NCBI RefSeq assembly: GCF_001428895.1
Contig: NZ_LMJA01000032.1
Span: 123,419-187,418 of the forward strand
Length of the DNA: 64,000 nucleotides
Direction of reading: 5' to 3'
DNA from: Mycobacterium sp. Root265
GTDB taxonomy: Bacteria; Actinomycetota; Actinomycetes; Mycobacteriales; Mycobacteriaceae
Below the pieces are notes generated by a model. It did not search any database and had not been told where the DNA came from. It was given only the letters and a program-made list of their open reading frames with translations. Positions 8,500-63,789 of the stretch are shown here, piece after piece; the first letter of the stretch is position 1; each line of letters starts with the position of its first letter. The position numbers and the translations under genes are program-made.

Positions 8500-11471
<2,972 letters not shown>

Positions 11472-11473
11472 TC

Positions 11474-12040
11474 ATGAGTTCTGCGACCATCGATCCGCGT
11501 ACCTTCCGGCATGTGCTCGGCCAGTTCTGCACCGGTGTCACCGTGATCACCACGGTCCATGACGGGGTGCCGATCGGTTTCGCCTGTCAGTCCTTCGCCG
11601 CGCTGTCGCTGGATCCGCCGCTGGTGCTGTTCTGCCCCACCAAGCAGTCGCGGGCCTGGCAGGCCATCGAGTCCAGCGGCAAGTTCTGCGTCAACATGCT
11701 GCACGAGAACCAGCAGCACGTCTCGGCACAGTTCGGATCCAAGGCGCCGGACAAGTTCGCCGGGATCGACTGGAGCCCTTCGGAACTCGGATCGCCGGTG
11801 ATCGACGGCAGCCTGGCCCACATCGACTGCACGGTGGCCTCGGTGCACGACGGCGGTGATCACTTCGTCGTGTTCGGCGCGGTGCAGTCGATGTCGGAGC
11901 CGCCCGCTCTCAAGCCGCGCCCGTTGCTGTTCTACCGCGGCGAGTACACCGGTATCGAACCGGACAAGAACACCCCGGCCCAGTGGCGCGACGATCTGGA
12001 TGCCTTCCTCACCGCGACCACATCGGACACCTGGCTCTGA
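11474..12040 (+). CDS. hsaB: 3-HSA hydroxylase, flavin reductase component
   Basis: A 188-residue flavin reductase domain protein that supplies reduced flavin to HsaA. The family motifs FRHVLGQFCTGVTVITT, ACQSFAALSLDPPLVLFCP and GDHFVVFGAVQ are present and the protein follows M. tuberculosis HsaB end to end (final SDTWL). The start at 11474 (MSSATIDPRTF) matches that N-terminus; an upstream in-frame GTG lies inside hsaC. It is the last gene of hsaADCB. The arylamine N-acetyltransferase gene that follows hsaB in M. tuberculosis is not here. Confidence 0.95.
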   Translation: MSSATIDPRTFRHVLGQFCTGVTVITTVHDGVPIGFACQSFAALSLDPPLVLFCPTKQSRAWQAIESSGKFCVNMLHENQQHVSAQFGSKAPDKFAGIDWSPSELGSPVIDGSLAHIDCTVASVHDGGDHFVVFGAVQSMSEPPALKPRPLLFYRGEYTGIEPDKNTPAQWRDDLDAFLTATTSDTWL

Positions 12041-54854: not shown

Positions 54855-56087
54855 TCAGGCGGCATCCTTCTCGGTGCCGGAGTCGCGGTCGGCGGTCTTG
54901 GTCTCCGGGCGCGCGGCCTGCTTTGGGGCGATCGGAGAAACCTTCCGTTCCGTGCTGAGACCGGGTGTGTCGGAGCTCTTTTCGGCCACTACAACGCTGG
55001 GACGGCCTGGCTTCTTCACCGTGCGGGCGGTCCGTAGTTTCTTGACGGGGGCGGCCACCTCGGGTTGCGGCTCCACGGCCTGCGCTGTGGCGGGCGCCGC
55101 GATGCGGTTCTCTGCGGCCGCCGCCGGCGTGTCGGTGGTCGTGGTGTTCGGCGCGCTCGGCCGGAGCACCTTGGCGACTTCACCGGCGATATCGCGCACC
55201 ACGGCGACCGCGAACTTGATGGGGGCCTGCACGACGGCGCCGACACCGTTGCGGATTGCCGTGGCGATCTGGCCGATGTCGCCGGTGCCGAAGGCCCGCA
55301 CCACGTTGTAGGCCGCGGTCTGCGGTGCCACCACGAGATCGCGCGCGTTGACAAACAGTTTGGTGCCAAGGCCGGCCGGTCCGACCGGCAGACCCGCCCA
55401 GGTTTTCAGCGTCCAGCCCTCCTCGGAGCTGCCCTCCACCACCACAATCCCGGTGTTGTCCAACCGGTGGCGCAGCATCAGCCCCAGGTCCGGGTTGTCG
55501 ACGTTCATCATCGTCCAGAACATGATCGTGGCGGCATGGGAGAACACGACGGGGTTCTGTGCGCCGGAGTCCTCGACGACCTGAAGCGCGGCGTCCATAC
55601 GGGCATCGAAGGCGTTGCCGTCTCCGCCGCCGGGGACCGGCACCGAGCGAGCACCCAGCGTCCACAAGGCGGGGGCGAGCACGTAGCCGATTCCGCCGAT
55701 CCCGGAATCCGACGATCCCTCGAACCAGCCGGCGTTGATCTCCCGGAATCCGGGCAGCACGGTGGGGGTGAGGCCGGTGGCGGCCGCGAACGGCGCGGCG
55801 GTTTCGGTGGTGCGCACCATGTTCGACGCGTAGATCGCGTCATAGTCCACACCGCCGGCGGCCAGCGCTGCCGCCACCGCCGCCGCCTGGGTCTGGCCCA
55901 GCGGCGTCAGATGGGCACCGGGAATCGAGTTGTCGATCGTGTGCGTCGCATTGGCTTCGGACTCGCCGTGCCGCACGAAGGTCACCGTCATCGCGGCCGC
56001 GGGCAGGGCCGTGATGACGAACAGGACGGCGGCGGTCAGCGCCGCGAGCAGGAGTTTCAGTGACCGACTGCGTGACCCCGGGACCAT
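54855..56087 (-). CDS. Secreted histidine-phosphatase family protein with long charged tail
   Basis: A 410-residue protein with a signal peptide or anchor (SRSLKLLLAALTAAVLFVITALPAA, about residues 6-30) and then a phosphoglycerate-mutase-like domain with the catalytic RHG in TFVRHGESEAN and later His in VVFSHAATIMF. The last 125 residues are Thr/Pro/Ala/Lys-rich and look disordered. Export to the cell wall is likely; the substrate is unknown. The ATG at 56087 puts the signal at the N-terminus; a longer frame starting at 56174 is less likely. Confidence 0.83.
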   Translation of the reverse strand: MVPGSRSRSLKLLLAALTAAVLFVITALPAAAMTVTFVRHGESEANATHTIDNSIPGAHLTPLGQTQAAAVAAALAAGGVDYDAIYASNMVRTTETAAPFAAATGLTPTVLPGFREINAGWFEGSSDSGIGGIGYVLAPALWTLGARSVPVPGGGDGNAFDARMDAALQVVEDSGAQNPVVFSHAATIMFWTMMNVDNPDLGLMLRHRLDNTGIVVVEGSSEEGWTLKTWAGLPVGPAGLGTKLFVNARDLVVAPQTAAYNVVRAFGTGDIGQIATAIRNGVGAVVQAPIKFAVAVVRDIAGEVAKVLRPSAPNTTTTDTPAAAAENRIAAPATAQAVEPQPEVAAPVKKLRTARTVKKPGRPSVVVAEKSSDTPGLSTERKVSPIAPKQAARPETKTADRDSGTEKDAA

Positions 56088-56173
56088 CGGATCACAGTAG
56101 CGAGCCAGGCCGTATCGCCGCGTGAAATGGCGGGAAATGCGGCCGAAACGAACGGTGCGCCGATGACACACCA

Positions 56174-56266
56174 CTTAAGGGGTTTTCACCGACGCGAAGG
56201 TGGCGTCCGCGCTGCGAACCTGTTGATACGGAAAGGCCGGTTCTGCCGACGCGATCCGCAGCACAC
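56174..56266 (+). repeat. 93-bp promoter-region repeat, copy A
   Basis: This stretch upstream of the F420-reductase-like gene is matched without gaps by the reverse complement of 59998-60090. By hand count 82 of 93 positions agree. The shared core is GCGAACCTG, 18 bases after GAACC to CCGGTT, and GCAGCACAC at the end. The GAACC and GGTT pair fits an ECF -35/-10 layout. It lies 33 bases before the ATG at 56300. Confidence 0.85.
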
Positions 56267-56299
56267 GTGCCTTCGGCGAGAAATCAGTAGGAGATATCC

Positions 56300-56932
56300 A
56301 TGAGCAACATCAGCATCATCGGTCTGGGCCACATGGCCGGCGCCCTGGCAGGCCGGGCACTGGCGGGCGGCAACACCGTCGAGCTCATCGGCCGCAACCC
56401 GGCCAAGGCGAAGGAACTGGCGAGCAGGCTGGATGGAGCCACTGTCAGGGCGATCGGAGAGCCCCCGGCGGGAGACATCGTCGTGCTCGCCGTGCCGTAC
56501 GCCGGCGCCGCGGTGGCGGTCGGAGAGTTCGGAGATGCGCTGAAGGACAAGGTCCTCATCGACATCACGAACCCCTTCGCTCCCGATCTCACAGGCCTCG
56601 TGACCCCCGACGGCAGTTCCGGTGCCCAGGAGATCGCCAAGGCCGCCCACGCCGGCACGCGCGTCGTTAAGGCGTTCAACACCTTGTTCGCCGAGGTCCT
56701 CGCGACCCGTCCGGACAAGGACCGCCCGCTGAACGTCTTTCTCGCCGGCGACGATGCCCAGGCGAAGGCCGACGTGTCGGCGTTCGCCGAGAGCCTGGGA
56801 CTGCGCCCGTTGGACGCCGGGCCGCTGTCAATGGCGCGGGCGCTGGAGTACGCCGGCCTGTTGGAGATCAGTCTGAAGACGCACGGGCTCGAGCAGATCG
56901 ACTTCGCTCTGGGTATCACCGTCGTGCGCTGA
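56300..56932 (+). CDS. F420-dependent NADP reductase-like (F420_oxidored family) protein
   Basis: A 210-residue NADP-binding protein with the Rossmann start ISIIGLGHMAGALAGRAL, VVLAVPYAGAA, IDITNPF, VVKAFNT and GDDAQAKADV. These are features of the family that includes F420H2:NADP+ oxidoreductase and related imine or ketone reductases, so the exact substrate is open. TAGGAG lies 6 bases before the ATG. The upstream 93-bp element, shared with the NTF2-sigma operon, suggests sigma-factor control. A pirin gene lies convergently downstream. Confidence 0.8.
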   Translation: MSNISIIGLGHMAGALAGRALAGGNTVELIGRNPAKAKELASRLDGATVRAIGEPPAGDIVVLAVPYAGAAVAVGEFGDALKDKVLIDITNPFAPDLTGLVTPDGSSGAQEIAKAAHAGTRVVKAFNTLFAEVLATRPDKDRPLNVFLAGDDAQAKADVSAFAESLGLRPLDAGPLSMARALEYAGLLEISLKTHGLEQIDFALGITVVR

Positions 56933-57051
56933 TCCGAATCGCCATCTGCACCAGGAGGATTTGTTGCAAGCATATGAACACTCGCCATGAGACGACACCA
57001 CGACGGCGTGAGCGATAAATCGAACCCCATGTCGGAGAACAGTCGTGGCGA

Positions 57052-58020
57052 TTATCCGGTGTGGGGTACGTGTTCGGTGGGGATGACGCCGAATCGGCCG
57101 GCCTGGTAGTCCTCGTAGGCTCGAAGGATCTCCTCGCGGGTGTTCATCACGAAGGGCCCGGACTGAACCACTGGTTCTCGGATCGGCCGGCCACCGAGTA
57201 GCAGGACCTCCAAGTTCGGCTCGGCGGCGGGTTGGCTCTGCTGTGCGGCCAGGGTCAGCGCGTTCCCGGCGCCGAACACGCTGAGTTGGCCCTTGTGGAT
57301 CGGCTGTGCTGCCGTACCTGCGGTGCCGGTGCCGGCGAGCACGTAGGCCAGCGCGTTGAAGTCGGCCCGCCATGGCATTTCCAAACGCGCGCCCGGGCTT
57401 ATGGTCGCGTGCACGACCGTGATCGGTGTGTGGGTCGTCCCCGGCCCGGTATGACCGGCGATACCGCCGGCGATGACCCGCAGCAGTCCGCCACCGTCGG
57501 CCGAGGACAGCAGCCGGGCTTGCCGGGCGCGGATATCCTGGTAACGCGGTGTGACGAACTTGCTGGCGCGCGGCAGGTTCACCCACATCTGGACACCGTG
57601 GAACATTCCGCCTGAGACGACCAGATGCTCCGGGGGCTTCTCGATGTGCAGGATTCCGCTGCCCGCGGTCATCCACTGCGTGTCACCATCGGTGATCGTC
57701 CCGCCGCCGCCGTGGGAGTCGGTGTGCTCGAACGTGCCGTCGATGATGTAGGTGACAGTCTCGAAGCCTCGGTGCGGATGCCAGGGGGTTCCCATGGGCT
57801 CGCCTGGTGCCCATTCGATCTCGCCTATCTGGTCCATGTGGATGAATGGGTCCAGGTCGGTGAGCGACACCCCGGCGAATGCCCGTCGCACGGGGAATCC
57901 GTCTCCCTCGAGCCCGACCGGTGCAGTGGTGATAGATCGCACCGGCCGTTGCATGCCGGTGGCGGGATCGGGGACGGCGACCCGGGGCAAAGTGAGCGTA
58001 TCCGCAGTGATGGCTGGCAT
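57052..58020 (-). CDS. Pirin-family protein
   Basis: A 322-residue bicupin. The metal ligands are in HPHRGFETVTYIIDGTFEHTDSHG (about residues 78-101) and GSGILHIEKPP, matching the iron-site His/His/His/Glu pattern of pirins, and a C-terminal pirin domain follows. Some pirins cleave quercetin, others act as redox sensors; this one is not assigned. A CAGGAG ribosome site precedes the ATG. It is convergent with the F420-reductase-like gene across 119 bases, in which nothing else was seen. Confidence 0.9.
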   Translation of the reverse strand: MPAITADTLTLPRVAVPDPATGMQRPVRSITTAPVGLEGDGFPVRRAFAGVSLTDLDPFIHMDQIGEIEWAPGEPMGTPWHPHRGFETVTYIIDGTFEHTDSHGGGGTITDGDTQWMTAGSGILHIEKPPEHLVVSGGMFHGVQMWVNLPRASKFVTPRYQDIRARQARLLSSADGGGLLRVIAGGIAGHTGPGTTHTPITVVHATISPGARLEMPWRADFNALAYVLAGTGTAGTAAQPIHKGQLSVFGAGNALTLAAQQSQPAAEPNLEVLLLGGRPIREPVVQSGPFVMNTREEILRAYEDYQAGRFGVIPTEHVPHTG

Positions 58021-58092
58021 GGCTTGGTCTCCTGTCGGTTGGCAAAAGGTTTGGGATACCGGACCCCGGCGGGGTGGTCGTGCTGTTTTCTG

Positions 58093-58836
58093 TCAGTGGC
58101 TTCGCAGGCGGTCGACGACGAATTCGGCTGCCTCGGCGGCCATGCCGTTGACGGCGTACGCGCTATGGGCGCCACGATCGAGGCCGGTCGATCCGCAGAC
58201 CGGATCCCTTGGGGCGCAGAGGTCGATGGTCCTGTCGTCGAAGGCCGGGCCGATCTCGATGGGAGGAGCGTCATGCCGCAGCAGCCTCAGGATTTCCGGT
58301 GAGGGTTTACCGAACAGGACGACCGCGGTGATGTTCTCGACGACGTCCGGAGGTAGAGCGGTCAGCGCGTACCCGGCAGGAACGGTCTCGCTGGTGACGT
58401 AGCCGCTGACGGCGGCGCCCTGAGAGTAGCCGCCGACGATGATCTCGGTGGAGGGGCAGTTGGCACTGAGATCGAGCAGGCGGTTGCCGGCGTCCAGGAT
58501 GCCTTCGACGGCCCGGTCGAACTGCAAGGATGCCGGATAGTTCACGGCATGGACGCCGACGACGCGGTCGGGTAGGCGTTCGCGCAGTGCTTGGATGAAT
58601 GGCTCACCGACCTTGCCCACGCCCGGGTCCTCGAAGGTACCGCGAGCAAAGACGACCTCGACATCGGCGCAGTCGGCGATCGAGGTCGCTGCGGGCTCCC
58701 CGTTTGCCTGTCCAGGGGTGGCGCCGATGAACAGTGCGGCGATTGCCGCGCCGACGGCCATCGCGTAGAGCGGCAGGCGCAAAACGTTTGTATCTCCCTG
58801 TTGGATAACTAATTTCGAAGGCGAATGCCGTATCAT
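58093..58836 (-). CDS. Secreted cutinase-like serine esterase
   Basis: A 247-residue cutinase-family (Culp-type) hydrolase. An N-terminal signal region (AMAVGAAIAALFIGATPGQANG) precedes the catalytic domain with FARGTFEDPGVGKVG, the nucleophile in VGGYSQGAAV near residue 138, and Asp/His in LCAPRDPVCG and RGAHSAYAVNG. Cys pairs fit the family disulfides. It hydrolyses lipid esters outside the cell. The start is uncertain: ATG at 58836 gives a long leader, whereas TTG at 58782 is preceded by AGGGAG. It follows the sigma-factor gene by 54 bases and may be co-transcribed with it. Confidence 0.86.
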   Translation of the reverse strand: MIRHSPSKLVIQQGDTNVLRLPLYAMAVGAAIAALFIGATPGQANGEPAATSIADCADVEVVFARGTFEDPGVGKVGEPFIQALRERLPDRVVGVHAVNYPASLQFDRAVEGILDAGNRLLDLSANCPSTEIIVGGYSQGAAVSGYVTSETVPAGYALTALPPDVVENITAVVLFGKPSPEILRLLRHDAPPIEIGPAFDDRTIDLCAPRDPVCGSTGLDRGAHSAYAVNGMAAEAAEFVVDRLRSH

Positions 58837-58890
58837 GGCGATTGTGTCCTTTGGTTCGGTGGCGGTGGCCCCTGCCCGTCGATGTTGGAA

Positions 58891-59535
58891 CTACCCCGCT
58901 TGATTGTGAGCGCCCCTGTACCCACGGTCCGCGGCGATGCCGGCCAACAGCACGCGCAGGCGAGAGCGGCCGCGGTGGATTCGTGACATGACAGTCCCCA
59001 GTGGCGTGCCCATGATCGCGCCGATCTCTTTGATGGCAAGGCCCTCGACGTCGGCGTAGTACACCGCCATCCGAAAATCGGCGGGCAAGGCATCCAGTGC
59101 GTTCCTGATGTCGTTGTCGGGTAACAACTCCAATACCTCCACCTCCGCAGAGCGGAGTGCTCTCGGCGAACGGCCGGCGTCGGCAACGAGCTGCCACTCG
59201 AGTGTCGTGTCGACCGACAACTCGGCGGGCCGGCGCATCCGCTTGCGGTAATTATTGATGTGGGCATTGGCTTGGATGCGAAAGAGCCATCCCTTGAGAT
59301 TCGTTCCTTGCTGGAAAGTCCTGAAACCCGCGTACGCCCGCACCAATGTCTCCTGCACCAGATCCTCGGCGTCAGCGCGCTGCCGGGTCAGCCGCATGGC
59401 TCCACCGAAAAGCGTGTCCAAAAGCGGGATCACGTCACGCTCGAAACGCGCTGCCAGTTCGACGTCGCTCTCGGCCGGGATCGGGGCAAGGTAGCTCGTG
59501 ACTTGTAGCGGTGCAGCGCTTTCCAGGTTGGTCAT
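58891..59535 (-). CDS. ECF sigma factor of the SigH type
   Basis: A 214-residue sigma-70 family protein. Region 2 is [21 protein letters not shown], then [25 protein letters not shown], with region 4 from [40 protein letters not shown]. It resembles M. tuberculosis SigH closely, yet no RshA-like Cys/His anti-sigma gene follows. It is preceded by an NTF2-like gene whose stop overlaps its start (ATGA). The 93-bp element upstream of that operon is shared with the F420-reductase-like gene, which hints at autoregulation. Confidence 0.88.
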
Positions 59536-59960
59536 GACAACCTCATAGTGCTCTCGGTCAATGTGAGCACCGGCATTCCACTAGCGGGTGCGAGGCGATT
59601 GTGAAGTGCGACGATGGCTCGCATCGGCCGCAGGTGGATTGACAGCGAGGCGACCTTGCCCGCGGCGTTGACCCCGATCAGGTCGATACCGTCGATCTCC
59701 GTTTCGCCGATCCTGATGTTGGTGACGACCGCGAAATATCCATCTCCGGAGATGATGTGGGTGACCGTGAACTCATCGACGACGTCGAGGATTTCAGACA
59801 CCACCTTCGCGACCTGTTCGCGGCCTACGCAAGGCACAACGTCGATCGGGCTCTCGAGGATCACATATTCGGCGAGTTGAGCTGCTGCGCTTGTGCCATC
59901 GCGTGTTTGCAGAGCCGCCAAGAATGCCGATAGTCCTGCTGGAATCTCATCCACAGGCAT
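59532..59960 (-). CDS. NTF2-like (SnoaL-type) protein
   Basis: A 142-residue protein of the NTF2-like fold ([71 protein letters not shown]). Members act as small ligand-binding or isomerase domains, and some ECF sigma factors carry such a domain fused at their C-terminus as a regulator. Here it is a separate gene translationally coupled to the sigma gene, so a regulatory partnership is plausible. The ATG at 59960 has a GGAGGT ribosome site. The sequence upstream matches the 93-bp repeat. Confidence 0.78.
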
Positions 59961-59997
59961 TGACCTCCGTTGATTTCCAGGGCCTCCCGGGACGTAA

Positions 59998-60090
59998 GTG
60001 TGCTGCTGATCGAGTCGGGAGAACCGGCTTGTCCGTGTCATCAGGTTCGCAGCGAGGACGCCGCCTTCGCGTCGGTGAAGATCCCTTAAG
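59998..60090 (-). repeat. 93-bp promoter-region repeat, copy B
   Basis: The reverse complement of this stretch matches copy A (56174-56266) without gaps in 82 of 93 positions by hand count. It lies 37 bases upstream of the NTF2-like start. The GAACC (60044-60048 on the complement) and GGTT (60022-60025) cores are kept with the same 18-base spacing. The rest of the 248-base gap 59961-60208 shows no gene. Confidence 0.85.
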
Positions 60091-60208
60091 CAAGCACCGG
60101 CGCCCACCGTCGCGGCGGCGTCATCGGTCTTCCTACGAACAGGTAGCGGCGGAACGAACCTCTACCACTGACCGGATCGCGTTGTCCCTCGCGGAGGGGG
60201 ACCACCTA

Positions 60209-60769
60209 TCAGCGCACTCCTTGGAACACGATCTCCAGAACACCGTCGATGTATGCCGGTTCAAGTGGCATCGCATGAACCAGCCGGTACTCGACGACTC
60301 CGTAGAGCAGGTCGCGCAGAGTCTGCCAGTCGGCGTCGGCGCGCATCTCACCGCGCTGCTGCGCCAAGGCGGTGCGGGCGCGGAAATCTTCGATATTGGG
60401 TTCGATGATTCGTTCGAAGAGGGCGCGCAGGAGGCTGGGGTCGGACTGGCCGGCGGCGATCAGACACCGGTAGGCCGGTCCGAAGCCGGTGGTCGTAATC
60501 AACTCCAGGATCGCCGACAGCTGGGTCCGGATGTCGGCGACGAGGTCGCCGGTGTCGGGGAGCACGACGACAGTGCTGAGGCTTTCGGTCGCAGCTTCGA
60601 GTATCACCGCGCCTTTGGATGGCCACCAGCGGTAAATCGTCTGCTTGCTCACGCCGGCCTGCCTGGCGATCGCTTCGATCGAGATTTTGTCGTACCCGAT
60701 CTCGCCGATCATCGACATGGACGCATCGAGGATGGCGCGACGCGATTGCTCATTCCGGTTCGCAGGCAC
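60209..60769 (-). CDS. TetR-family transcriptional regulator
   Basis: A 186-residue TetR regulator with RNEQSRRAILDASMSMIG and the helix-turn-helix ISIEAIARQAGVSKQTIYRWWPSKGAVI (about residues 28-55), then a TetR_C ligand domain. A GTG at 60769 is chosen because it places the basic arm at the N-terminus; an ATG frame start at 60883 lies in the divergent promoter. It is divergent from the LuxR-type gene. A perfect 8-6-8 inverted repeat at 60807 lies 37 bases upstream and is the likely operator. Confidence 0.86.
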   Translation of the reverse strand: MPANRNEQSRRAILDASMSMIGEIGYDKISIEAIARQAGVSKQTIYRWWPSKGAVILEAATESLSTVVVLPDTGDLVADIRTQLSAILELITTTGFGPAYRCLIAAGQSDPSLLRALFERIIEPNIEDFRARTALAQQRGEMRADADWQTLRDLLYGVVEYRLVHAMPLEPAYIDGVLEIVFQGVR

Positions 60770-60806
60770 ATCGCAAACCGTAGACGAGCGGAGGCCGACT
60801 CGGATG

Positions 60807-60828
60807 CAATACGGTGCGGTCCGTATTG
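60807..60828. promoter_or_regulatory. Candidate TetR operator
   Basis: CAATACGG and CCGTATTG arms form a perfect 8-bp inverted repeat with a 6-base spacer, located between the divergent TetR and LuxR-type starts. The size fits a TetR operator. Confidence 0.6.
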
Positions 60829-60987
60829 ACGTAGGGCGGACCGTCTCATATCGTCGCGGTAGCCGGCGTGGCGCTCCGGCCAAGGCTCAGATCACTCTGG
60901 TCGGCACGGATCGGCGCCACTTCAGGAAGGAAGCCAGCCGGTGTGTGTCGAACGGGTCGATTCATATGGACAAACCCTGCTGTGACG

Positions 60988-63789
60988 ATGTTGGAGCAGC
61001 CGCCACTGCGGGGGGAGGACGGACTCACCCGAGCCCAGGCTGAGCAAAAAGGTGGGGGTCTACTGGGGCGACGGGCGGAACGTGAAGCGATCAGCAAACT
61101 TCTGGCCGAGGCGCAGGCGGGGCGCAGCGGGATACTCGTGGTGCGCGGGGAAGCGGGCATCGGAAAGACTGCACTGCTGCAGCATGCCCGCGAAACCGCG
61201 GTCTCCCTGGGGATCCGGGTGGAATCGTCGCTCGGCGTGGAGTCAGAGTCGCAGTTTGCGTTTGCCGGTTTGCACCAACTGTGCGCGCCGCTACTCGGCC
61301 GCACGGAGACGCTGCCAGACCCGCAGCAGACCGCACTCGACGTCGCGTTGGGCCGCCGGACCGGTGCCGCGCCGGACCGGTTCCTGGTCGGGCTGGCCGT
61401 CCTCAACCTCCTCGCAGATGAGGGGCCGATGCTGTGCCTCGTCGACGATGCGCAATGGCTGGACCAGGCGTCCGCGCAGGTTCTTGCGTTCGTGGCGCGG
61501 CGGGTGGCGGCCGAACGGTTGGTGCTGGTATTCGCAGTGCGCGACCCCTGCGAAGGCGGCGGAGACCGGTTCGCCGGGTTGCCCGAGGTACGCCTGGACG
61601 GGGTGGTCGACACCGATGCCCGAGCGCTGCTGACCACGGCCGTTCGCGCACCGCTCGATCGTCGGGTCCGCGACCGCATCATCGCCGAGGCGCGCGGTAA
61701 CCCGTTGGCGCTGCTGGAGCTGCCCGGCGGCGCGCAGTTGGCGGGTGGGTTCGAGCTCCCCGACGTCATGAGCGTGCCGCGCCGCATCGAGGACAACTTT
61801 CAGCGGCGCTCGCGCAGCCTCCCCGCTGAGACACAACTGCTGATGTTGGTGGCTGCCTCCGAGCCGACCGGCGATGCATCTCTGCTGTGGCGCGCCGCCA
61901 ACTGTCTAGGGATCGACCGCGAAGCTGCCGCGCCCGCGGAAAGCGCAGGATTGCTCGAGATCGACACCCGGGTGCGGTTTCGCCATCCGTTGGTGCGCTC
62001 GGCGGTCTACCGTGCGGCCACGGCGCCGGAGCACCGTCGGGCCCACTATGCCCTGGCTGCCGCCACCGACCCGCAGGCCGATCCGGACCGCCGCGCTTGG
62101 CACCGCGCGCAGTCGGTGTTGGGTACCGACGAAGAAGCCGCCGCGGACCTGGAACGCTCGGCCGATCGCGCGTTGGCCCGCGGTGGGTTCGGTGCTGCGG
62201 CAGCGTTTCTTCGGCGCGCAACCGATCTGACGCCAGAGCCCGGGCATCGAGCGAGACGCGCACTGGATGCTGCCAACGCCAAGCACTGTGCCGGTGCGCC
62301 CGAAGTCGCCCTGAAACTGCTGGAGAGCGTGGACGCCGGGCGACTGGACGCGCTGCAACGCGCCCGTCTGGAACTGCTCCGCGCCCAAATCACATTCCAC
62401 CTCACCCAAGGCAGCGAGGTGCCGGGGATGCTGCTGGGCGCCGCTCGGATGTTGGCTCCCCTGGATCCTTCGCTCGCGCGTGAGACCTACCTGCAGGCTT
62501 TCGACGCGGCGACCATCACCGGGAGTTCGGGTCTCGAACCCGGCCTACCCGAGATCGCCGCCGCGGTCAGTGCCGCACCGGTGCCCACTGGGGAGCCAGG
62601 ACCGGCGGATTTACTGCTCGACGGGTTGGTGGCCGTACACATGAATGGATTCGAATCCGGTGTGCCCATCCTCAGGCGGGCCCTGGAGGCGTTCCGCGAG
62701 CACGTGTTCCCGGTCGAGACCGTCCGAGTCGGCGACGCAGGCAACTGGCTGTGGCTGGCCACGCGAACGGCAATAGCACTGTTCGAGGACGAACTGGTCA
62801 TCGTGTTGGCCGACCGCTACGTGGGGCTCGCGCGCGAAGCCGGCGCCCTCGCCACGCTGCCCGCTGCGCTGGTAGTTTCGGCGTGCGCGCGGGTCTACAC
62901 CGGTGAGCTTCATCTCGCCGCCGAGTTGGTGGACGAGGCTGCTGCGATATCACGAGCGACTGGCGCGATGCCTCTGAGCTTCGCGCAAACCTACCTGGAT
63001 GCGTGGCGTGGGGTCGATTCGGAGGACGTCGATCGATGCGACGCCCGTGACGGGAAGGCAACGGAACGCACGCGGGGTATCGAAGCCACGGTGTCCATGT
63101 GTGCGGCGGCGGTGCTCCACAACGGCCGGGGTAACTATCCGGCGGCTCAGAAAGCCGCTTCTCAAGCATGTGACACGTACGAACCGTCGATCAGATGGCA
63201 GGCGCTCCATGAACTCGTCGAGGCGGCCTCCCGCGCCGGCGATCCGGAATCCGCCTCTCGCGCAATGGAAGAATTCAGTGCAAGAGCCCGCGCCAGCGGT
63301 ACCGAGTGGGCACTCGGTGTTGCTGCGCGCTCCCGAGCGCTGACCAGCACCGGACTGGAAGCAGAAGAGCACTACCGCGAGGCGATCGCGCGACTGCAAA
63401 ATTGCCGAATGGGTGCCTTTCTTGCCCGCACCCACCTCGTCTACGGTGAGTGGCTACGCCGTGAAGGGCGACGCCACGACGCACGCGAACAACTCCGCAC
63501 CGCGCACGCGCTCCTGGCTGATATGGGCGCAGAGCCGTTCGCCGCCCGCGCCGCCCGCGAGCTACATGCCACCGGCGAGCATCCACGCAAACGGACCGCC
63601 CAACCGACCGACGCGCTCACCGCCCAAGAGCTGGCCATCGCGCGACTCGTCGCTACCGGAGCTACTTCCCGTGAGGTCGGTGCGCAACTCTTCCTGAGCC
63701 CGCGCACGATCGAAGCCCACCTGCGGAACATTTTCCGGAAACTCGGCATCACCTCCCGTCGACAACTCAAGGAGCTGCACCCGCCGTGA
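60988..63789 (+). CDS. LuxR-type ATPase regulator (LAL/MalT-like)
   Basis: A 933-residue regulator. The N-terminal AAA-type domain has Walker A GEAGIGKT at residues 54-61 and a Walker B-like LCLVDDAQWLD near residue 150. A long middle part holds TPR-like helices, and the last 57 residues form the LuxR helix-turn-helix (LTAQELAIARLVATGATSREV; FLSPRTIEAHLRNIFRKLGI). Such proteins bind ATP and a ligand and activate target genes. The ATG at 60988 places Walker A at the usual distance; an upstream frame start at 60868 would lengthen it by 40 residues. The divergent TetR and its palindrome may control it. Confidence 0.88.
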   Translation: MLEQPPLRGEDGLTRAQAEQKGGGLLGRRAEREAISKLLAEAQAGRSGILVVRGEAGIGKTALLQHARETAVSLGIRVESSLGVESESQFAFAGLHQLCAPLLGRTETLPDPQQTALDVALGRRTGAAPDRFLVGLAVLNLLADEGPMLCLVDDAQWLDQASAQVLAFVARRVAAERLVLVFAVRDPCEGGGDRFAGLPEVRLDGVVDTDARALLTTAVRAPLDRRVRDRIIAEARGNPLALLELPGGAQLAGGFELPDVMSVPRRIEDNFQRRSRSLPAETQLLMLVAASEPTGDASLLWRAANCLGIDREAAAPAESAGLLEIDTRVRFRHPLVRSAVYRAATAPEHRRAHYALAAATDPQADPDRRAWHRAQSVLGTDEEAAADLERSADRALARGGFGAAAAFLRRATDLTPEPGHRARRALDAANAKHCAGAPEVALKLLESVDAGRLDALQRARLELLRAQITFHLTQGSEVPGMLLGAARMLAPLDPSLARETYLQAFDAATITGSSGLEPGLPEIAAAVSAAPVPTGEPGPADLLLDGLVAVHMNGFESGVPILRRALEAFREHVFPVETVRVGDAGNWLWLATRTAIALFEDELVIVLADRYVGLAREAGALATLPAALVVSACARVYTGELHLAAELVDEAAAISRATGAMPLSFAQTYLDAWRGVDSEDVDRCDARDGKATERTRGIEATVSMCAAAVLHNGRGNYPAAQKAASQACDTYEPSIRWQALHELVEAASRAGDPESASRAMEEFSARARASGTEWALGVAARSRALTSTGLEAEEHYREAIARLQNCRMGAFLARTHLVYGEWLRREGRRHDAREQLRTAHALLADMGAEPFAARAARELHATGEHPRKRTAQPTDALTAQELAIARLVATGATSREVGAQLFLSPRTIEAHLRNIFRKLGITSRRQLKELHPP

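Follow-up and report, generated by a model that had tools for sequence, protein, structure and literature searches.

Two nearly identical stretches of DNA flank a sigma factor locus of Mycobacterium sp. Root265 in inverted orientation, which raises the question of which regulator acts on them. The window analyzed here is the whole 64,000-nucleotide stretch (contig NZ_LMJA01000032.1, positions 123,419 to 187,418 of the forward strand), and coordinates are counted from its first letter. One copy of the element (copy A) lies upstream of an F420-reductase-like gene and the other (copy B) upstream of an operon with an NTF2-like gene and the sigma factor gene, as a preliminary description of this DNA had placed them. 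An ungapped count of 56174-56266 against the complement of 59998-60090 gives 82 of 93 matching positions, the same figure as in that description, and in a repeat search the inverted pair reaches a length of 107 nt with 84% identity (copy A, 56174-56280, + strand; copy B, 59984-60090, − strand). The next-best ungapped match to the 93-mer on either strand of the window is 45 of 93, so chance is excluded for the pair. A search of the genome (6.67 Mb, 30 contigs), which the preliminary description had proposed, finds the element at two places only (E <= 0.001), and a scattered general repeat is thereby excluded. Plasmid origin of the region 56100-61000 was rejected, since none of the 39 matching plasmid records covers 80% of it (38 at 60 to 80% identity, one at 80 to 90%); among eight of these matches listed, five fall on genes annotated as pirin or as reductase-like (NAD(P)-binding) and three have no feature or annotation beneath the match. 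The promoter duplication is real and well delimited, and the earlier proposal of a duplicated promoter-like element linking the reductase gene to the sigma operon was right in outline.

As to the regulator, we consider it fairly likely that the element is a housekeeping-sigma promoter activated by a neighboring LAL (large ATP-binding LuxR-type) regulator and duplicated to put the F420-reductase-like gene under the same control. What can be seen directly is the pair itself, the modular conservation of the element, its co-occurrence with the LAL gene, and the persistence of its conserved box where the sigma gene is missing.

We aligned 18 copies of the promoter. Among 298 genus genomes, 23 gave a match to a 141-base element query, and 13 of these were kept as carriers after inspection (G000, G014, G028, G052, G090, G142, G185, G200, G205, G207, G218, G225, and G229); the other 10 gave short and weak partial hits, none better than E 1e-4, and had no box. 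A 14th genome, G084, which carries two element copies, was reached through its LAL ortholog, and L048 (Mycobacterium sp. 236(2023)) through TetR homology, both independently of the box search. The alignment thus holds 17 copies from 14 genomes (two each from G000, G028, and G084) plus that of L048.

Conservation across these copies is modular, with a 15-nt block, a TAnGnG module, and a GnnAnnnT motif being near-invariant. The block, TCACCGACGCGAAGG, spans −42 to −28 and is conserved in 269 of 270 cells, and the TAnGnG module stands upstream of it at −52 to −47 (T-52, G-49, and G-47 in 18/18 copies, A-51 in 17/18). Together they form a 25-bp box, of which CTTTCACC is the common form of the pattern, at 56176-56200 (+) in copy A and 60064-60088 (−) in copy B. 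The motif belongs to a −10 of the form TGnnAnnnT, in which G-14, A-11, and T-7 are kept in all copies and T-15, and with it the TG, in 16/18; in the two window copies this predicted extended −10 reads TGCGAACCT (56213-56221, +; 60043-60051, −). Box and −10 align without gaps over all copies, while the spacer between block and −10 is variable (155 of 216 cells carry the majority base), as is the flank upstream of the box (183 of 324 cells). We saw no −35 hexamer; the box stands where one would lie.

From the −10 and from three relatives, transcription is predicted to start at 56228 in copy A, giving a leader (56228-56299, +) up to the reductase ATG, and at 60036 in copy B, giving a leader (59961-60036, −) up to the ATG of the NTF2-like gene at 59960. 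In G205 (GTG), L048 (ATG), and G084 (GTG), the start codon of the NTF2-like gene falls exactly at the predicted +1 and keeps the frame of the conserved N terminus of the NTF2-like protein, so that these three relatives appear to be leaderless from the same start (positions L140 near 9926-9970, L048 near 10611-10660, and L131 near 9118-9162). The predicted +1 is a purine in 17/18 copies and the predicted −1 a C in 14/18. The copies therefore show an ANNNT within −13 to −6, an upstream TG, and a purine at what is itself a predicted +1, as expected of a SigA-type extended −10. According to excerpts of a study of Mycobacterium smegmatis promoters, 79% of these have ANNNT at −13 to −6 and there is no SigA −35 consensus, +1 is G or A, C is the more abundant base at −1, and 24% of transcripts are leaderless (PMC6448022).

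Similarity of this length had been taken to go beyond a promoter core and possibly to include an operator or a 5′ leader RNA; the operator-like box was borne out, and a conserved leader RNA found no support. The identity of the window pair does extend into the predicted leader. However, three relatives have no leader and that of G207 is shortened, and no Rfam match up to E 1 was found in 55000-61500. RNAalifold on 10 leaders of the 18 copies gives −4.55 kcal/mol with a covariation term of +0.47 and only one of nine pairs changed on both sides, which is not the signature of a structured leader or riboswitch. We give hardly any chance to the conserved stretch being a leader RNA element and have rejected it as a candidate.

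The preliminary description had instead seen GAACC and GGTT cores 18 bases apart, as in an extracytoplasmic function (ECF) sigma promoter, and proposed that the sigma factor drives itself and a redox gene. The sigma factor (58891-59535, −) is SigH-like, scoring 251.6 bits against TIGR02947 SigH_actino (cut-off, 251.55), and its gene is present at the locus in 12 of the 14 loci of LAL-bearing genomes; the NTF2-like gene is present in 13/14 (in-frame search). The spaced cores do occur in both window copies, but in only 3/18 copies overall; GAACC and GGTT spaced by 16 to 20 bases occur in 6/18 and GAACC alone in 9/18, and of the pair, all copies retain just the A and the T after it that belong to the −10. 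In the three leaderless relatives the gene starts 7 nt beyond the place of GAACC, and a GGTT −10 would then lie within the coding sequence. A scan of seven clusters for SigH-type promoters gave seven matches; G207 has the only one on the operon strand, and the other six are on the opposite strand.

Natural gene losses bear on the same point. Box and −10 are kept in G090 and G052 despite the sigma gene being missing at the locus (L134 and L132, respectively). In G090 a short remnant resembling the first sigma codons precedes the cutinase gene (L134, around 11973-12040), and in G052 both the NTF2-like and the sigma gene are gone, with the box preceding a truncated cutinase gene. The best other sigma matches in these two genomes reach 313 and 321 bits, inside the 313 to 324 band in which a SigH-class match away from the locus falls in other genomes too. 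An ECF promoter driven by the sigma factor was therefore set aside as unsupported, on conservation, on the leaderless start codons, and on the genomes lacking sigma at the locus, and direct recognition of the element by the SigH-like sigma now looks quite improbable.

Two side observations concern the sigma factor. Four of the six opposite-strand matches are one recurring GGAAC..CGTC match (4/7 clusters), found in the window around 60221-60247 on the + strand, where it looks like an ECF promoter lying antisense inside the end of tetR; it is probably explained by coding conservation. G225 carries, outside the cluster, another sigma copy of very high similarity (400 bits; G225:C1:2014463-2015089), and the box pattern scan found no second box match in that genome.

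The LAL regulator (60964-63789, +) is encoded divergently from tetR, the gene upstream of copy B. Membership in the LAL family follows from a Pfam scan of its 941 aa, with an N-terminal AAA_16 ATPase (6.4e-19, residues 33-189) and a C-terminal LuxR/GerE helix-turn-helix (HTH) domain (GerE, 3.6e-15, residues 884-935). Of 296 genus genomes, 14 have a close ortholog (77 to 100% identity), and identity then drops to 53% for the next match. The exact 22-nt box pattern is found in 14/14 genomes with a LAL ortholog versus 3/282 others (G281, G220, and G026; Fisher's test, 2e-21, with related genomes treated as independent). Of these three, G281 and G220 have the match inside an uninterrupted frame, and in G026 none of the three frames read is uninterrupted there. 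The helix SPRTIEAHLRNIFRKL, which we take to be the recognition helix, is common to 13/15 LAL orthologs and occurs in none of five paralogs examined; the exceptions are G084, with one change, and G200, with proline for histidine. DNA binding by LAL and activation of the promoter are what we infer from these patterns.

The same data bear on whether the box is instead the site of a different, unlinked activator that has taken over the cluster. The tie to LAL is one of correlation and cis linkage only, which leaves room for such a factor, yet the exact box is concentrated in LAL genomes as just described. An unlinked activator should also have further sites, and the genome of the window has no third exact core: its 16-nt core occurs at two exact and two one-mismatch places, and TAnGnG is in place in 0/18 of the near core matches listed (one or two mismatches, own genome, judged by eye). 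Within the window, core matches at <=3 mismatches number 5 versus 1.03 expected, and the three outside the pair carry two or three mismatches. We regard the unlinked activator as unlikely.

TetR (60209-60787, −, from the family scan; a conserved start near 60769 was read from homologs) offers another reading, in which the box is a second operator of this neighboring regulator. TetR is equally well conserved as LAL, and tetR stands directly upstream of copy B. TetR's own promoter, however, has a conserved palindrome of quite different sequence, CAATACGG-N6-CCGTATTG at 60807-60828 between tetR and LAL, a candidate TetR operator conserved over 13 rows (CAATACG 13/13, CCGTATTG 12/13; the window site has perfect 8-bp arms). 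The box is not a palindromic site of the kind expected for TetR, its palindromy being no better than that of shuffles. It is also missing beside four TetR homologs without a close LAL: among the first 20 of 80 TetR homolog loci, which were inspected for the box, L052-L055 (two Solirubrobacter, M. canariasense, and Pseudonocardia; 57 to 70% identity) have no LAL match above 45% identity and no box at <=3 mismatches in the 16 to 21 kb fetched. The box as TetR operator was rejected in favor of the palindrome, and we hold it to be very improbable. Beside the palindrome lies another conserved stretch, ACGATACGAGACGG in many rows. The Solirubrobacter TetR proteins (L052 and L053) are 70% identical to the mycobacterial one, which suggests horizontal transfer of the TetR regulator without LAL.

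The duplicated element stands before different genes in different genomes. Copies precede the NTF2-like operon, and extra ones near the same LAL face other genes. In the window the gene concerned is the F420-reductase-like one; in G028 it is isochorismatase-like by its Pfam match (4.4e-22), and in G084 it shares 41% identity with that of G028 and is likewise isochorismatase-like. The reductase gene (56300-56932, +) encodes an F420-dependent NADP oxidoreductase-like protein (Pfam F420_oxidored, 1.4e-13; npdG 72 bits, below the cut-off of 149.8). Homologs occur in 14 other genomes of 198 searched (61 to 71% identity), and none of 11 fetched loci (about 3.6 kb each) has a box at <=4 mismatches near the homolog; the enzyme gene appears to have been brought under control of the box. 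The variants CTTAAGG and GGTTCT are common to both window copies and unseen in the other aligned copies. Because these shared variants are private to the window pair, they suggest that the duplication arose within this lineage, although copy A, compared over the 51-nt promoter part, is as close to the isochorismatase copy of G028 as to copy B (90% each).

Returning to the LAL-activated promoter, the switch would work as follows. Acting at the palindrome in the promoter region common to tetR and LAL, TetR would keep both genes repressed, and its release would let the LAL level rise. LAL would then bind the 25-bp box (−52 to −28) over the −35 position, standing in for a −35, and RNA polymerase with the housekeeping sigma would be recruited to the extended −10, starting at 56228 (A) and 60036 (B). 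Copy B would thereby switch on the genes for the NTF2-like protein, the SigH-like sigma, the cutinase, and the pirin, and copy A, in this genome, the F420-reductase-like gene. The SigH-like sigma would be an output of the switch instead of its driver.

Several observations weigh against this proposal. The box pattern with one mismatch allowed is found in 79/296 genomes, and the 16-nt core at <=3 mismatches at 379 places in the own genome versus 90 for a reversed control, so that only the full exact box is specific. Since LAL, TetR, and box lie together in cis in genomes that are related, co-occurrence by itself cannot tell LAL apart from some other factor passed on with the cluster. Palindromy of the box is equaled or exceeded by 1091 of 2000 shuffles. 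The first −10 base, before ANNNT, is G or C (TGn[G/C]AnnnT), where T is the commoner base. In G200 the LAL helix carries its proline and tetR is a remnant (L139, 4900-5560), with one palindrome arm no longer intact; the box is intact there, and the switch as a whole may be in decay. G200 also has a further TetR homolog (70%) at another place, so this is not a clean TetR loss. The G052 assembly has a completeness of 87%, and the cutinase gene there is also truncated. Finally, the absence of a relocated sigma ortholog from G090 and G052 is judged from scores only, and this stays an inference because the locus sigma of G084 also scores only 318 bits, inside the off-locus band.

The remaining genes of the operon strand complete the picture. 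The NTF2/SnoaL-like gene (59532-59960, −; SnoaL_2, 1.6e-05, 25.9 bits versus a gathering score of 27) is the first of the operon and overlaps the sigma start codon, and its product may be a partner of the SigH-like sigma. Downstream of sigma follow a cutinase-family gene (58093-58836, −) and a pirin-like gene (57052-58020, −), both from the family scan. No anti-sigma family was found among the neighbors scanned for families; the next gene after sigma is the cutinase gene.

The locus offers a precise candidate box and a start site backed by leaderless relatives, and natural gene losses separate the sigma gene from the box. Under the favored reading, a SigH-like sigma is placed under a dedicated switch. 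A broader interpretation, which we put forward tentatively as a possibility, is that a TetR-gated LAL controls the ECF sigma at the level of transcription and not by way of a zinc anti-sigma factor, with the NTF2-like protein as a possible partner, and that the box is a portable promoter cassette copied before different enzymes. If so, with F420-reductase-like and isochorismatase-like genes as targets in different species, the same switch would gain new outputs. The regulatory module is solid but ordinary in kind and introduces no new principle.

How does this module compare with known systems? The operon sigma resembles that of SigH (TIGR02947) ECF promoters, but the GGAAC/GTT pair of their consensus is not conserved here, and unlike in SigH systems there is no anti-sigma gene among the neighbors scanned, while an NTF2-like gene precedes the sigma gene. 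MalT is likewise a large LAL-type ATPase activator with sites near the promoter; its target genes are others, and the box sequence is not known to be related to its sites. Mycobacterial SigA-type promoters, as excerpted in PMC6448022, share ANNNT (here at −11 to −7), the purine at +1, the C at −1, and leaderless variants, but the fixed 25-bp box in the −35 region sets the present element apart. LAL regulators have been called a poorly studied family (excerpt of PMC3282765); among the literature matches listed, none named a mycobacterial LAL binding site and none was recognizably on this cluster, and a literal search for the 14-nt box core gave no paper. MalT sites are direct-repeat decamers according to an excerpt of PMC6099782, which also describes TpdR of Rhodococcus jostii TMP1, a LAL activator with one repeat overlapping −35. 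As excerpted there, the proposed TpdR site consists of a direct repeat of 15 nt (TnnAAnnGCGGAnTC) spaced by 13 nt, as opposed to the single 25-bp box found here, and the present system also differs in its targets and in having tetR divergent from LAL. With an actinobacterial LAL of N-terminal ATPase and C-terminal LuxR HTH and a promoter repeat over −35 (PMC6099782, in the same excerpt), TpdR is the nearest described analogue that we found.

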